Source: Halobacteriales archaeon QS_4_62_28
GTDB lineage: Archaea; Halobacteriota; Halobacteria; Halobacteriales; Haloarculaceae
Direction of reading: 5' to 3'
DNA: 64,000 bases
NCBI GenBank assembly: GCA_003021685.1
Contig: PXRO01000008.1
Coordinates: 1 to 64,000, forward strand
Shown: piece by piece, positions 2,309 through 63,793 of the stretch
Layout of the letters: each line of letters starts with the position of its first letter
How positions within the stretch are numbered: position 1 is the stretch's first letter
Made by a program: the position numbers and the translations under genes
The notes under the pieces: generated by a model
What the model was told of the DNA's origin: nothing
The model's database searches: none
Seen by the model: only the letters and a program-made list of their open reading frames with translations

Positions 2309-3010
2309 ATGTTCCAGCCACCCGATGAGATAATCGATTTGAGTAATCCGATCGACGAGACCATCCCGACCTGGCCGACATTCGAGCCGGTCCGCTGTGA
2401 ACAGACGGACTGGGCCGCCCGGGACGGATTCACTATGGAGCGCGTCGAGATGGCGACTCACACGGCGACCCACGTCGATGCCCCGCTTCACTTCATCCCC
2501 GAGGGAAAAACACTCGACGACTTCCCGCTAGAGAAATTTGTGGGGGAAGGTGTCGTCCTCGACCTCTCCGAGCGCGACGGCAAAATCACGATTACGGAGT
2601 CGGAACTGCGCGAGTTCGACCCGGAGATAGAACCCGACGACGTAGTGATGCTTTACACGGGCTGGGATCAATACTACGGGCGCACACCGGAGTATCTCTT
2701 CGAGTTTCCCCACCTATCCGGTAACGCGTCGCAGTACCTGGCCGATCAGGACGCGAAAGCGGTCGGCATCGACACGCCGAGCGTCGGCGGGTGGGTCGAC
2801 GAGGCGCCGGCCCACGGTCCGTCCACGGAGGTCCAACCCGACGAGTCCCACCTTCCGCTGCTTGAAAACGATGTCATTCCCCTTGAGGAACTCCGGAACC
2901 TCGACGAAGTCCTCGCTGGGGAGACATCCCGGCGGGCGTACTTCTGCTTCCCGCCGCTGAACTACCAGAACACAGGCGGCGGTTCAGTCCGCGCCTTCGC
3001 TATGCTATAG
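2309..3010 (+). CDS. Cyclase-family (kynurenine formamidase-like) metal-dependent hydrolase
   Basis: Protein of 233 aa in the cyclase family (PF04199), whose members hydrolyse amide or lactone bonds. The metal-binding motif HTATHVDAPLHF is present in the N-terminal third, followed by YTGWD and the C-terminal FPPLNYQNTGGG block typical of the family. An open frame continues upstream to a GTG at 2249 and an ATG at 2300, but a TATA-like stretch (aatatttatt, about 2275-2284) lies about 25-30 bases before the ATG at 2309, favouring a leaderless start there. In a sugar-acid island a lactonase-like role is possible; this is not shown by the sequence. Confidence 0.85.
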   Translation: MFQPPDEIIDLSNPIDETIPTWPTFEPVRCEQTDWAARDGFTMERVEMATHTATHVDAPLHFIPEGKTLDDFPLEKFVGEGVVLDLSERDGKITITESELREFDPEIEPDDVVMLYTGWDQYYGRTPEYLFEFPHLSGNASQYLADQDAKAVGIDTPSVGGWVDEAPAHGPSTEVQPDESHLPLLENDVIPLEELRNLDEVLAGETSRRAYFCFPPLNYQNTGGGSVRAFAML

Positions 3011-3103
3011 CCCGGCTGCGGAGTAGACTGTTTTTTCCGCCGGCCCTCTTGGCAGTTCGACCATGGATGTATAATACGGTGGAAGGTGTTGGCACGAACG
3101 CAA

Positions 3104-3886
3104 ATGCCAGACTACACCCAGGATTTCGATGGCGAAACGGTATTGATAACGGGGGCAACGTCCGGCATCGGTCGTGAGATTGCCTTACGATTCGGTGCGG
3201 CGGGGGCGACGGTGCTAAACGCCGACATCGAACGCGAACCGAAAGATGCCGACGTCCCGACGCACGAACGCATCCGGGGGGAGGGCGGAGAGGCCGCGTA
3301 CGTCGAGACCGACGTCTCGAACCCCGAGGAGATCGAAGACGCCCTGGTGACTGCACGCGAGTACGGCGGCGTCGACGTGATGGTCAACAACGCCGGCCTG
3401 TTCATCGGTGGGGACTTCCTCGACATCACTCCGGCAGAATTCGACTCGATCTTCGGGGTGAACGCGAAAGGGGTCTTCTTCGGCTGTCAGGCGGCCGCCG
3501 CGGACATGATCGATCGCGGTGTCGAGGGATCCATCGTTAATACCGCCTCGATCAGTTCGTGGATGGCACAACACGACCAGGTCCAATACGACGCGACGAA
3601 GGGCGCGGTGAAAATGGTCACGCGCGGTGCTGCACTCGAACTCGCCGAGCACGGCATCCGCGTCAATGGCGTCGGGCCCGGTCAGATCGCGACCGAGTTC
3701 ATCGAGGACTGGTCGGAGGACGCCCCGCAGGCGGCAAAAGAGGAGGAATTTCTCAAGCCGGTTCCGCTCGGGCGGGCCGGTTATCCCAGGGACGTCGCCG
3801 GTGCGGTACTCTTCCTCGCGAGCGAGGACGCCGCGTACATTTCGGGGGAGATCATCATGGTCGACGGCGGCTGGCAGATCATCTAA
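3104..3886 (+). CDS. SDR-family oxidoreductase
   Basis: Classical short-chain dehydrogenase/reductase of 260 aa using NAD(P). The cofactor motif TGATSGIG is at residues about 17-24, the structural NNAG follows VMV, and the catalytic Ser and YxxxK (YDATK) are in order, with the C-terminal SGEIIMVDGGW characteristic of 3-oxoacyl-reductase/sugar dehydrogenase types. The ATG at 3104 is about 30 bases after a tataata element at 3070, so a leaderless start is likely. Co-directional with the cyclase gene and inside the sugar-acid cluster; a hydroxy-acid or sugar dehydrogenase is the reasonable guess. Confidence 0.9.
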   Translation: MPDYTQDFDGETVLITGATSGIGREIALRFGAAGATVLNADIEREPKDADVPTHERIRGEGGEAAYVETDVSNPEEIEDALVTAREYGGVDVMVNNAGLFIGGDFLDITPAEFDSIFGVNAKGVFFGCQAAAADMIDRGVEGSIVNTASISSWMAQHDQVQYDATKGAVKMVTRGAALELAEHGIRVNGVGPGQIATEFIEDWSEDAPQAAKEEEFLKPVPLGRAGYPRDVAGAVLFLASEDAAYISGEIIMVDGGWQII

Positions 3887-9040: not shown

Positions 9041-9256
9041 GGACTGAAACCGAGCACGGTAGAGACATCGAGTGTCTCGACGGACAGAAAGCTCAGAGCA
9101 GGATTGAAACCTATCGATCCAGCGATTATCGTCGGTCGCGACGGGTGTCGCGACGGACAGAAAAACCAGAACGGGATTGAAACAGGCCGAACTCCGGATC
9201 AGCGAGGACAAAACCGGAGTCGCGACGGACAGAAAACCCAGCACGAGGATTGAAAC
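9041..9256 (+). CRISPR. Short degenerate CRISPR array without cas genes
   Basis: Three near-identical direct repeats of 37-38 bases lie at 9074-9110, 9147-9183 and 9219-9256. Each starts gtcKcgacggacaga and ends ggattgaaac, with the middle diverging; the third has one extra base. The two spacers, 9111-9146 and 9184-9218, are 36 and 35 bases and unrelated. A fourth worn end, ggactgaaac, is at 9041-9050. Repeat length, the attgaaac end and spacer sizes fit type I or III archaeal repeats. Repeat divergence and the absence of cas genes indicate an inactive remnant; transcription from an AT-rich leader on the left would be expected. Confidence 0.72.
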
Positions 9257-21601: not shown

Positions 21602-21696
21602 CATCTGGCTGTCATAGAACGTCGGCAGACTCAACCTGTGCATCGCTCGCGACCGGCGATTCACGATTGGACTAACCCGCCTGTATGTTCGCGCCG

Positions 21697-22563
21697 CTAT
21701 TGTAGCGGGTCAGTCTCGAACACGAGTTCCCTATCAGTGACATTGATTAACCCTTTCTCATCTAACCGGTCGAGCCCCTCGCGTAGCTGATCGTCAGTCG
21801 AGTGAGAGTCTGGAGCAAACGCTTCGATGAACCCGTCTTTTGCAACCGACCCTCGCCGCCGGAGTTCGTAGAAGAGTTCTCGTTCGGCGTCGACCACGTC
21901 AGCCAACTGCCGCACCTTCTCAACGAGATCGTCTGGTAACCCCTCGATATTCGCAAACGTCGATTCGAGCTGAAAGATTGGATGTTGTTTCCCCTCTTGC
22001 GCAATCCACTCATATTCATCAACGCCATAGTTCAGTGGCAATTGGTTGTCTATTTCTGTAGCCAGTGTGTCGAAGTCGATCCCACGCGCGAGCAGCGCTT
22101 CTACGTCATTCCGGTCGTCATCTCGCGGCGTCATCGATTTAAAAAGTGTAATATCAACCCAACTCAGACGGTGGACGGACAACTGCTCTTGCTCGAAGAC
22201 GTGTTCGGACCGTGCTTGCATGCCCTCAGAGAGGGACAACTTCGACATCACCTGCCGGTCGAAGAGGTCGATATGGCCGTCGTCGTACTTGAGGACACTT
22301 GTCGCCCCCAATGAATCGTAATCCGGTTCAGTATGTTCCTTCGGCTCGAATTTCAGATCGAGTAATGCCGCTCGGATCCGGCGGTAGTCATCGTTCGTCG
22401 GTGCGAGCAAATCGATATCTTTGGTGGCCGGCTTAATCCGTTCAAGGGCCATTGCCCCACCACCGAGAAGATACACAGTCACACTCTGCTTTAGCTGCTC
22501 ATCAATCGTCTCCAACGTCTCAATGATATCTTCCCGGCTTGAATATCGTTGCTCATCGCTCAT
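21697..22563 (-). CDS. DUF6036/AbiEii-like nucleotidyltransferase, candidate toxin
   Basis: Protein of 288 aa. Residues about 28-60 hold the nucleotidyltransferase core: YLLGGGAMALE followed by TKDIDLLAP, i.e. the GG motif and the DxD metal site of the MNT/AbiEii superfamily; DGHIDLFDRQ may give the third acid. The C-terminal third looks like a winged helix (STDDQLREGLDRLDEKGLINVTD). A GTG at 22566 precedes the ATG by one codon. It follows the winged-helix regulator by 60 bases on the same strand. By analogy with AbiE this would modify tRNA or another nucleotide target; that is inference. Confidence 0.72.
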   Translation of the reverse strand: MSDEQRYSSREDIIETLETIDEQLKQSVTVYLLGGGAMALERIKPATKDIDLLAPTNDDYRRIRAALLDLKFEPKEHTEPDYDSLGATSVLKYDDGHIDLFDRQVMSKLSLSEGMQARSEHVFEQEQLSVHRLSWVDITLFKSMTPRDDDRNDVEALLARGIDFDTLATEIDNQLPLNYGVDEYEWIAQEGKQHPIFQLESTFANIEGLPDDLVEKVRQLADVVDAERELFYELRRRGSVAKDGFIEAFAPDSHSTDDQLREGLDRLDEKGLINVTDRELVFETDPLQ

Positions 22564-22623
22564 CACATAAACGTCTGCACTACTATTGAAAAAAGCACTG
22601 CTGGCGCGAACCGATCCGATACA

Positions 22624-23661
22624 TTACGATTCTCTGGCCTCCGCTGACAGCCGTGTGGCTGCCTCTTCGACATCGATATCATACTGCGTGCCCGTGTCGA
22701 CGAGCCGCTCCCAGGTTGGAAATGAACTCGATAGATCTGCTGACAGCACGTCAGTGTCACCACGACGTTCGATGAAATCAATTAGTGTGTCAATCTCACG
22801 TTTGACACCGTAGATCTCCGCTGCCTCACGCAGGCCTGGGACCGACATCTGCTCCTCGCGAGTTGTTCCAAGCACGACCAATATACAGAACCTGACCAAC
22901 CGATGCTCAATACGACGACAGAGCGCGTGACAAACTGCTTCTGCCGGAGTTACGTGAAGGTCGCCTTGTGTAACCGTATTTCTATACAATAATGGGGCAA
23001 CGGCAACAGTGAAGTCGAATCCAAATTGCGGGAATGCGGCAAGCCCGGTCACGACCCATTCAGTATCATCGACAAGCTCCTCAGCTACTCCCTCTGTTGA
23101 CTCACCAGGGACAACGAGCGCTTCACAGGGCGCTGCCCAGACAAGTGTGGCGTCTGGGAGGATCGGTCCGATATCCACCTGCTGGTTGTGGCGAGCAGTC
23201 ACAGCTGCCAGTCTACCGAGCTTTTTATACTCAGCTTTCAGTTCGTAGCGGCCTCGAGCCGGCTTGGTAACGAACTGCCGTCTGACCAATGTGGCGAGGA
23301 GTTGCTGTACGCGAACCCGGCTGAGATTAATGCGTAGCGAAATATCGGACGGACCGAGTGGCTTCTCCGCCCAGTAAAGGACTGTCAGTAGCGACGGCGT
23401 CAGTAATTCAGGAAGATCAACGTGCGGGACAGAGTCTGCAGCTGTATCGAGCGCTCCCGCGACATCGCTTTGCTGACGCCGGTAATATATTGTCGACTCC
23501 GCTGTCGCTTCAAGTCGCTCCAACAGTCCCTGCTCACAGAGTGTCGTCACTCGCCGCCGAACGGTCCCGAGTGCGAGCCCTGTTTGTTCGCTGATCTTGG
23601 ATGCGTCCAAAGGTTTCTGTCGAAGGCCAGAGAGAATTCTGAGATCACTCTGCTGAAGCAT
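22624..23661 (-). CDS. Winged-helix DNA-binding protein, candidate antitoxin/autorepressor (AbiEi-like arrangement)
   Basis: Protein of 345 aa with two helix-turn-helix units: about residues 5-50 (LDASKISEQTGLALGTVRRRVTTL) and 88-140 (LGPSDISLRINLSRVRVQQL). The remaining 200 residues are a mixed domain I do not recognise (PCEALVVPGE, EWVVTGLAAF). First gene of a pair with the nucleotidyltransferase. A TATA-like element at 23683-23693 on this strand puts the transcript start almost at the ATG, and a perfect inverted repeat flanks it. The organisation (DNA-binding first, nucleotidyltransferase second) is that of type IV AbiE-like systems. Confidence 0.72.
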   Translation of the reverse strand: MLQQSDLRILSGLRQKPLDASKISEQTGLALGTVRRRVTTLCEQGLLERLEATAESTIYYRRQQSDVAGALDTAADSVPHVDLPELLTPSLLTVLYWAEKPLGPSDISLRINLSRVRVQQLLATLVRRQFVTKPARGRYELKAEYKKLGRLAAVTARHNQQVDIGPILPDATLVWAAPCEALVVPGESTEGVAEELVDDTEWVVTGLAAFPQFGFDFTVAVAPLLYRNTVTQGDLHVTPAEAVCHALCRRIEHRLVRFCILVVLGTTREEQMSVPGLREAAEIYGVKREIDTLIDFIERRGDTDVLSADLSSSFPTWERLVDTGTQYDIDVEEAATRLSAEARES

Positions 23662-23663
23662 AT

Positions 23664-23711
23664 GTAAAATTTGGACTGGGTCACATATAAAAGCTATGAG
23701 CCAAATTTTAC
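23664..23711. promoter_or_regulatory. Perfect 11-bp inverted repeat flanking the promoter of the winged-helix/nucleotidyltransferase pair
   Basis: gtaaaatttgg at 23664-23674 and its exact reverse complement ccaaattttac at 23701-23711 are 26 bases apart. The TATA-like cttttatatgt (minus strand, 23683-23693) lies between them. One arm covers the expected transcript start just before the ATG and the other lies upstream of the TATA element. This is a strong candidate operator for autoregulation. Confidence 0.75.
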
Positions 23712-23932
23712 AACACCGTTATTTGTCGGCTGTACCGGTACGCGATATCCTTTCGTTCTGACACAGGATTCGGTCGAGAGTATATGGGGACCTGCATCCT
23801 GAACTTGTGAACTGTTGTGTGACATCTCTCTGGTGTCGCCATTTTAGTCGATTGTTTCCGGTATCGCCATGACAGCAGCAGTCGCTCGATGGAACCCGAA
23901 CAAATATTGTTGACGGATATGAAAGTCAGGGT

Positions 23933-62644: not shown

Positions 62645-62690
62645 TCACCTCTGGCTATGGAGCCACGGCAGAAAAGCATGTCTCCTCGCC

Positions 62691-62732
62691 CGCTGGCGAT
62701 CACCCGCTGACGATCACCCGCTGACGATCCAC
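62691..62732. repeat. 14-bp tandem repeat (three units) over the 3' end of the repeat-protein gene
   Basis: Units cgctggcgatcacc (62691-62704), cgctgacgatcacc (62705-62718) and cgctgacgatccac (62719-62732) run in tandem. The stop codon of the gene at 62714-63793 lies in the middle unit. Because 14 is not a multiple of three, copy number changes would alter the C-terminus. Confidence 0.8.
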
Positions 62733-63793
62733 ATTGCCCCGTTGTTGGACGGGGAAGGCAGTTCCTCGTCGGACGGCTCAGATGTCTCTCCGTCGGCTGT
62801 GCCAGGAGAAGTGGTCTCGGTTTCGGTATACGTTACCGAATTTTCGGTATCCCCATCTCCGGGGCCTTCGCTCGTCTCGTTGGTCGATTCCGACTCGTTG
62901 GTCGACTCCGACTCGCTGGTCGGCGGTCCAGTCGTATTGTTGCTGGCCTCGCCAACCCCGGTCGTGTTGTTGCCGGCCTCGCTACCCTCCGTCGGCGGTC
63001 CAGTTGTATTGTTGCCGGCCTCGCTACCCTCGGTTGGTGGTCCAGTCGTGTTGTTGCCGGCCTCGCTAACCTCGGTCGTATTGTTGCCGGCCTCACCGAC
63101 CTCCGTCGCCGGTTCAGTCGTATTGTTGCCAGCCTCACCGACCTCCGTCGCCGGTTCAGTCGTACCGTTGCCGACCTCACCAGTGTCTGTCGGCGGCCCG
63201 TCTCCGTTTCCCACTTCTGTCGGTTGGTCCCGTTCCGTCGGCGGACCCGCTTTCCCGGTCGTCACACCGTTTGCGACGCCGGGGACGCCGGGTGCTGTGA
63301 TGTTCTGGGCCAGTTCTCGAAGGTTCTCGATGGATGCCACATCAACGCCGGCCTGCTGGGCCGCCGATGTCGTGTCGTTGATGCTGCCCTGTAGTGCGTT
63401 GATCCGGCCCGCTATCTGGCTCGTCTGAGCGATGTACACCGGTTCCGGAATCTCACCGTTCTCGTATCGTTGCTGGAGTGTCCGGTTACGCTCACGGAGT
63501 CGTTCGGTCTGCCGTTCGAGGCGTGCTGTTCTGTCTGTCGCCAACTGGGCTCGCTCGGATTCGTTCGCCTGTTCGAATCCGGCCTTCCACATCCCCGATT
63601 CCACCGTATCGCTCGTCTCGGCGGCATTCGCCTGCATGAAAGCAGTCAGTTGGGTCCCCATCTCGGTCTCTGTTTCGTTCTCGTCGGTCCGGTTTGTTTG
63701 CTGGGCGCTGTCTCCCCCCGCGACCGGTAGCGTCACGATGCCGAGTGCAACAGCTGCGAGAACGACAACGACCGTCGCCTGCCGACTGTTCAT
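62714..63793 (-). CDS. Secreted sequon-rich repeat protein
   Basis: Exported protein of 359 aa. A signal peptide (ATVVVVLAAVALGIVTLPVAGG) is followed by a helical segment (residues about 40-170; ERAQLATDRTARLERQTERL) and a long low-complexity region of repeated 9-14-residue units such as EAGNNTTGPPTEGS, each with an N-glycosylation sequon (NNTT). There is no membrane anchor or PGF-CTERM tail; it ends abruptly NNGAMWIVSG within a tandem repeat, so the C-terminus may be altered. Function unknown; a glycosylated surface or matrix protein is likely. Confidence 0.75.
   Translation of the reverse strand: MNSRQATVVVVLAAVALGIVTLPVAGGDSAQQTNRTDENETETEMGTQLTAFMQANAAETSDTVESGMWKAGFEQANESERAQLATDRTARLERQTERLRERNRTLQQRYENGEIPEPVYIAQTSQIAGRINALQGSINDTTSAAQQAGVDVASIENLRELAQNITAPGVPGVANGVTTGKAGPPTERDQPTEVGNGDGPPTDTGEVGNGTTEPATEVGEAGNNTTEPATEVGEAGNNTTEVSEAGNNTTGPPTEGSEAGNNTTGPPTEGSEAGNNTTGVGEASNNTTGPPTSESESTNESESTNETSEGPGDGDTENSVTYTETETTSPGTADGETSEPSDEELPSPSNNGAMWIVSG

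Follow-up and report, generated by a model that had tools for sequence, protein, structure and literature searches.

Genes and features of the locus

The window, the whole 64,000-nt stretch of DNA analysed here, carries two adjacent genes on the minus strand, a regulator gene (REG) followed 60 bp downstream by a nucleotidyltransferase gene (NT). The pair is flanked by genes for a KaiC-like ATPase and for a DUF63 membrane protein, and comprises the following features.

23701..23712, minus strand: upstream operator arm TGTAAAATTTGG (coding strand), -51 to -40 from the REG ATG
23684..23692, minus strand: TATA-like element CATATAAAA, which is TTTTATATG on the minus strand, located between the arms by direct reading
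23663..23674, minus strand: downstream operator arm CCAAATTTTACA (coding strand), -13 to -2 from the REG ATG
22624..23661, minus strand: REG, double winged-helix regulator, predicted antitoxin/autorepressor, 345 aa from an ATG start (Pfam, AF2)
within REG: wHTH1, residues ~4-62; wHTH2, ~83-141; C-terminal domain HVO_2833_C, ~170-345
21697..22563, minus strand: NT, nucleotidyltransferase, predicted toxin, 288 aa (Pfam DUF6036, PDB profile, fold)
within NT: T47, D49 and D51 (motif I-II), D99 (third acid), K142 and R147 (motif III-like), D150 and D153 (motif IV-like); C-terminal winged helix, residues ~211-282
21697..23765, no strand assigned: extent of the transferable module, from the DNA match to Halomicroarcula rubra

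The initial annotation described a double-HTH protein of 345 aa and, after it on the same strand, a nucleotidyltransferase with GGGAMALE and KDIDLL motifs, and both descriptions agree with the open reading frames. In the AF2 model (mean pLDDT 92.5), REG folds into two winged helices in succession, followed by an alpha/beta domain at the C terminus. Two Pfam families score above their cut-offs: HTH_IclR (43.2 bits against 22), representing winged helices of the IclR/MarR type, and HVO_2833_C (PF24271, 49.5 bits against 34), which is present in all 20 of the REG relatives tested. Foldseek returned no full-length PDB match to REG, the winged helices alone being aligned (TM of 0.22 or less by query length), and no kinase or antitoxin homologue of the C-terminal domain is recognisable. 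This region had been described as an unknown domain of 200 residues and new; it is indeed without an assigned function or a PDB fold match, but it already bears a Pfam name. NCBI names the REG family 'MarR family transcriptional regulator' and the NT family 'DUF6036 family nucleotidyltransferase'.

The NT reading frame spans 21697-22566 on the minus strand, with a conserved ATG start at 22563 and an alternative GTG at 22566. Its AF2 model (pLDDT 87.3) shows a nucleotidyltransferase (NTase) core followed by a C-terminal winged helix, and its match to Pfam DUF6036 (PF19502) exceeds the cut-off (36.7 bits against 23.6). Profile comparison with the PDB gives a single significant match to NT, MenT1 (HMMER, E 6e-5). 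By fold, too, the MenAT1 complex 8an5 ranks first (E 1.9e-4; TM normalised by target length 0.60), ahead of LnuA (4fo1, E 2.4e-4) and then TM1012. No substitution occurs at T47, D49, D51, D99, K142, R147, D150 or D153 among 20 diverse NT sequences; the loss of the catalytic acids in relatives, which the initial annotation had named as refuting its proposal, is thus not seen. NT combines an NTase fold with the conserved Thr/Ser-x-D-x-D, Lys and Asp catalytic set of MenT-like toxins in the broad sense. In MenT1, T39, D41, K137 and D152 are catalytic-site residues, and T39 becomes autophosphorylated upon MenA1 binding (PMC10435456, PMC11375011). T47 of NT aligns with T39 of MenT1 by HMMER, and from the order of motifs K142 and D150/D153 presumably correspond to MenT1 active-site residues. 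NT is therefore likely to be a toxin-type NTase, with transfer to tRNA and growth arrest as its predicted effects. The NT end is straddled by a further inverted repeat, GACTAACCCGC/GCGGGTCAGTC (91%, window 21670-21680 / 21705-21715), possibly a terminator or a boundary feature.

A predicted operator of constant geometry and variable sequence

The REG promoter lies within an inverted repeat, TGTAAAATTTGG/CCAAATTTTACA, whose arms are exact over 12 of 12 positions and 26 nt apart; the downstream arm stops 1 nt short of the REG ATG. The repeat had been reported as 11 bp long (23664-23674 / 23701-23711), and its existence is confirmed, while its length is corrected to 12 bp (23663-23674 / 23701-23712). 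When the 200-bp region was shuffled 5000 times under a first-order Markov model, an exact 12-bp repeat never arose. The TATA element placed between the arms by the initial annotation is likewise present (23684-23692). It is centred ~27 nt upstream of the REG ATG, a distance suggesting that the REG transcript is leaderless, and a TTTATAT between the arms is conserved in relatives as well.

The arrangement of the arms recurs in relatives with other arm sequences. In a survey of 125 bp around each REG start at 77 loci, no pair of positions was self-complementary as often as -52/-9 (51 loci), and the arms lie at about -52/-3 in most clades. Their sequences are clade-specific: TGTAAAATTTGG in the window, and elsewhere TGTAACA, TGTTGCA, TTGTAAAC or, in some of the fused genes described below, ATTCC/GGAAT. 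All of them surround the TATA box and finish just before the start codon, and the fit between left and right arms is better within a pair than with the arms of other clades (13 of 20,000 permutations were as good). This co-variation of arm sequences at a constant position across distant clades is strong evidence for autoregulation of REG through the candidate operator. In the two big clades each 23-bp half-operator contains two boxes, at positions ~1-7 and ~14-20, and we infer that a single REG subunit would use its two winged helices to read both boxes. The window operator retains just a longer outer box. The span of the REG operator, ~50 nt, is close to that in the abiE promoter, whose two 23-bp repeats, separated by 3 bp, are bound by AbiEi (PMC7319586).

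Pairing, dependence and genomic setting

The pair was proposed to be a conserved unit across haloarchaea, and its distribution bears this out. A search of 97 related genomes yielded 59 NT matches in 37 genomes, and at 53 of these REG lies immediately upstream on the same strand. The other six are four REG-NT fusions, a broken gene with internal stops and a fragment of 54 residues. The fused proteins are 551-558 aa long, with REG at residues ~2-281 and NT at ~289-538, one of them confirmed by Pfam. Most pairs share a 4-bp ATGA overlap between REG and NT; the 60-bp gap in the window implies weaker translational coupling there and counts against the interpretation that we favour below. REG and NT distances correlate strongly over 75 loci (r=0.93, reached by no permutation). 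The association extends beyond haloarchaea: all seven non-haloarchaeal genomes of the phylum with REG also have NT, adjoining in at least six, and a nanohaloarchaeal MAG (L119) carries one pair.

The dependence between the two genes is one-sided. Both are intact at 75 of 80 named loci; three of the remaining five combine an intact REG with a truncated NT, one has a truncated NT and no REG, and the last runs into a contig end. That cut locus apart, no intact NT without REG was found among the 80 named loci or in the 97 genomes, as expected of a toxin-antitoxin (TA) module, whose toxin gene should not occur intact without the antitoxin gene. Conversely, the 97 genomes contain ~16 long REG matches without NT, one of which (L215) stands beside an NT cut by an IS. 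Intact NT was thus found only together with REG, and REG also occurs alone, an asymmetry to be expected of a pair in which NT does the harm.

Several loci depart from this arrangement in their own ways. At others of these REG matches (L220, L221, L222) the place of NT in the plasmid cassette is taken by a gene for a PIN-domain toxin, confirmed by Pfam in L220, together with a small AbrB-like gene, apparently one TA system replaced by another. On two plasmids a TnpB/transposase gene lies between intact REG and NT (L181, 6573-7802; L273, 3573-4802). At four loci (L212, L213, L216, L219) a solitary REG, its operator repeat degraded in appearance, and a neighbouring 454-aa gene stand tail-to-tail with 16-37 bp between them; on visual inspection the neighbour looks like an Mrr-type restriction endonuclease. 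In L227 a solitary REG (2938-3849) is faced by a different, AbiEii-like NTase gene of 275 aa. A ~272-aa gene is convergent just after NT at 27 of the 80 loci (e.g. L099, 10805-11623, minus strand), and a 107-aa gene is divergent before REG at 25; neither has a Pfam match.

The window copy has the appearance of a horizontally acquired, functional-looking chromosomal module. The DNA match to its nearest relative, in Halomicroarcula rubra (L061), covers 21696-23765 only, from the NT stop to 53 bp past the upstream operator arm. GC content is 53.1% over 21697-23712 against 62.5% for the window, and only three of 248 two-kb windows are as low. The dN/dS values against the same relative, 0.07 for NT and 0.09 for REG, indicate purifying selection. 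Genus relatives keep the right flank from about 23894 and carry the left-flank sequence at other genomic positions, which places the pair at a rearrangement junction; with the left flank rearranged, no clean empty site is readable in them. The 64-kb window contains no tRNA gene that could serve as an integration site. Elsewhere in it, three degenerate CRISPR-like repeats with 72-73 bp spacing occur at 9069-9255 (Rfam CRISPR-DR56 at 9147 and 9219), no cas gene having been noticed among the listed reading frames nearby, and a cluster of short tandem repeats with periods of 14-114 bp occupies 62689-63410.

NT is present in 88 haloarchaeal plasmid records. A phage origin is rejected by its absence from 50,697 phage records and from IMG/VR. 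With clades labelled by NT length and locus order rather than by a tree, Orc1/Cdc6 is encoded within 5 kb, mostly 2-4 kb upstream, at 35 of 50 loci of the main, 267-aa clade, against two of 29 in the 270-aa clade; genomes of the group contain 1-16 Orc1 genes each. The nearest relative of the window copy has no such linkage. The Orc1/Cdc6 association and the plasmid records fit a role in plasmid maintenance. Among 139 proteins encoded near one clade, PADLOC matched BREX, Mokosh, Kiwa and SoFic models; defence models were also matched among 140 proteins from arbitrary stretches, some of them on plasmids. A role in defence, an option raised by the initial annotation, may apply; the clearest linkage is the one to plasmid replication.

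A probable toxin-antitoxin system and its alternatives

We consider it probable that REG and NT form an autoregulated two-gene TA system of haloarchaea and related archaea, working like AbiE and MenAT; its toxicity, neutralisation and DNA binding are what we infer from the comparisons above. NT would be the toxin and, to judge from its fold, active site and homology, would most likely add nucleotides to RNA, probably tRNA, as MenT does, so that growth stops. REG, made first from the shared transcript, would keep NT harmless by direct contact or by inducing autophosphorylation of T47, the threonine preceding the DxD motif and the putative equivalent of MenT1 T39. The conserved geometry with co-varying arms suggests that REG subunits bind two facing half-operators around the BRE/TATA region and start site, shutting their own promoter. 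If the module were lost, REG would run out first and NT would poison the cell, which would stabilise the carrier plasmid or island; the window instance would be a chromosomal copy acquired horizontally. Several observations sit less comfortably with a TA system: the fold of NT is also close to that of LnuA, a resistance enzyme, its motifs deviate from those of DUF1814 as detailed below, the C-terminal domain of REG lacks a recognisable kinase or antitoxin homologue, the fused proteins misfit a simple labile-antitoxin scheme, and the Orc1 linkage holds in one clade only.

The pair might instead be canonical AbiE, with REG as AbiEi (COG5340) and NT as AbiEii (DUF1814) diverged in haloarchaea. 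The two systems share the gene order of winged-helix autorepressor first and NTase second, a winged helix joined to a C-terminal domain, an inverted-repeat operator of similar span and a link to mobile elements, DNA binding by REG being predicted. The PADLOC AbiEii model also matches NT weakly (E 1e-4, 19.7 bits). However, Pfam gives no AbiEii or AbiEi match, AbiEii (PF08843) being absent up to E 1; in hhalign, NT against haloarchaeal AbiEii reaches a probability of 1%, and REG aligns with haloarchaeal AbiEi over a generic winged helix of 54 columns only. AbiEi is also absent from the best 50 Foldseek PDB matches of REG. REG has two winged helices and AbiEi a single one, and the C-terminal domains of the two proteins differ. 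The AbiE motifs I-IV read hG[G/S]..DhD, an Arg in motif II, K..R and +DxxD (PMC3985639); NT has invariant GG, DxD, K142/R147 and D150xxD153, with '+' before DxxD in one clade only, but it lacks the motif II arginine, and its 13 residues from GG to DxD are a shorter spacing than in AbiEii. True AbiE pairs, moreover, exist separately in the same genomes. We therefore reject membership of the AbiE family on the combined results of Pfam, PADLOC, hhalign and Foldseek, and regard divergent AbiE as an improbable identity for the pair. Of the initial proposal of a haloarchaeal AbiE relative, the AbiE-like architecture, the conserved unit and the retained catalytic acids survive; the family kinship does not, given the hhalign results and the match to MenT1.

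Location beside Orc1/Cdc6, the winged helix at the C terminus of NT and the REG-NT fusions would also suit a two-protein module for transcription or replication control, such as plasmid copy number, in which NT would rely on its own winged helix to modify REG or to co-regulate with it and would not be a toxin. The Orc1 link is missing in the other main clade and in the nearest relative of the window copy, the intact NT depends strictly on REG, and the closest match of NT is a toxin, all of which make such a module quite improbable. NT could, finally, be a resistance-type or small-molecule nucleotidyltransferase akin to LnuA/ANT with a dedicated regulator, as the second-ranking fold match to LnuA would allow. 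The sequence profile favours MenT1, and loss of REG is always accompanied by damage to NT, which would be unexpected for the regulator of a resistance gene; the fusions, the linkage to replication cassettes and the C-terminal winged helix of NT argue in the same direction, leaving this the faintest prospect of the three. A HEPN/MNT system is rejected, the partner REG consisting of two winged helices and HVO_2833_C with no HEPN match in Pfam or the AF2 model.

Among known TA systems, MenAT1 of Mycobacterium tuberculosis (Rv0078A/Rv0078B; PDB 8an4/8an5/8rr5) resembles the REG-NT pair in its NTase core, with a Thr before DxD, the DxD itself, a Lys and a downstream Asp, and in its antitoxin-first two-gene unit. 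MenA1, in contrast, has 68 aa and no DNA-binding domain, and NT differs from MenT1 by the extra C-terminal winged helix and ~90 aa of additional length. PygAT of Pyrococcus yayanosii, known here as a COG2253-type NTase TA system through its citation in PMC11375011, is alike in its archaeal NTase toxin, upstream putative regulator and location on a genomic island. An NTase toxin with a winged-helix autorepressor is a known kind of system. The Pfam names DUF6036 and HVO_2833_C give neither function nor pairing, and the literature searched yielded no paper naming DUF6036 or HVO_2833 or describing the REG-NT pair; the REG antitoxin family, its operator logic, the fused forms and the replicon linkage appear undescribed there.

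Taken further, the TA interpretation would make REG-NT a new archaeal class, a possibility that we hold only tentatively. Its antitoxin would have two winged helices, each reading one box per half-operator, and a C-terminal fold absent from the PDB, and would induce autophosphorylation of the invariant threonine in a winged-helix NTase toxin. Such a class would provide Orc1-type haloarchaeal plasmids with their standard addiction unit and would also occur in the form of a single fused, self-controlled protein.

If the pair is a TA system, DUF6036 and HVO_2833_C, two large families that occur in about 40-50% of the haloarchaeal genomes sampled and have no assigned function, would gain a testable one. 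For one clade of haloarchaeal plasmids, a candidate addiction module would be identified next to the replication initiator, and NTase toxins would be seen paired with unrelated antitoxins in archaea. Operators of constant geometry and clade-specific sequence would make the specificity of the repressor directly testable in Haloferax volcanii.
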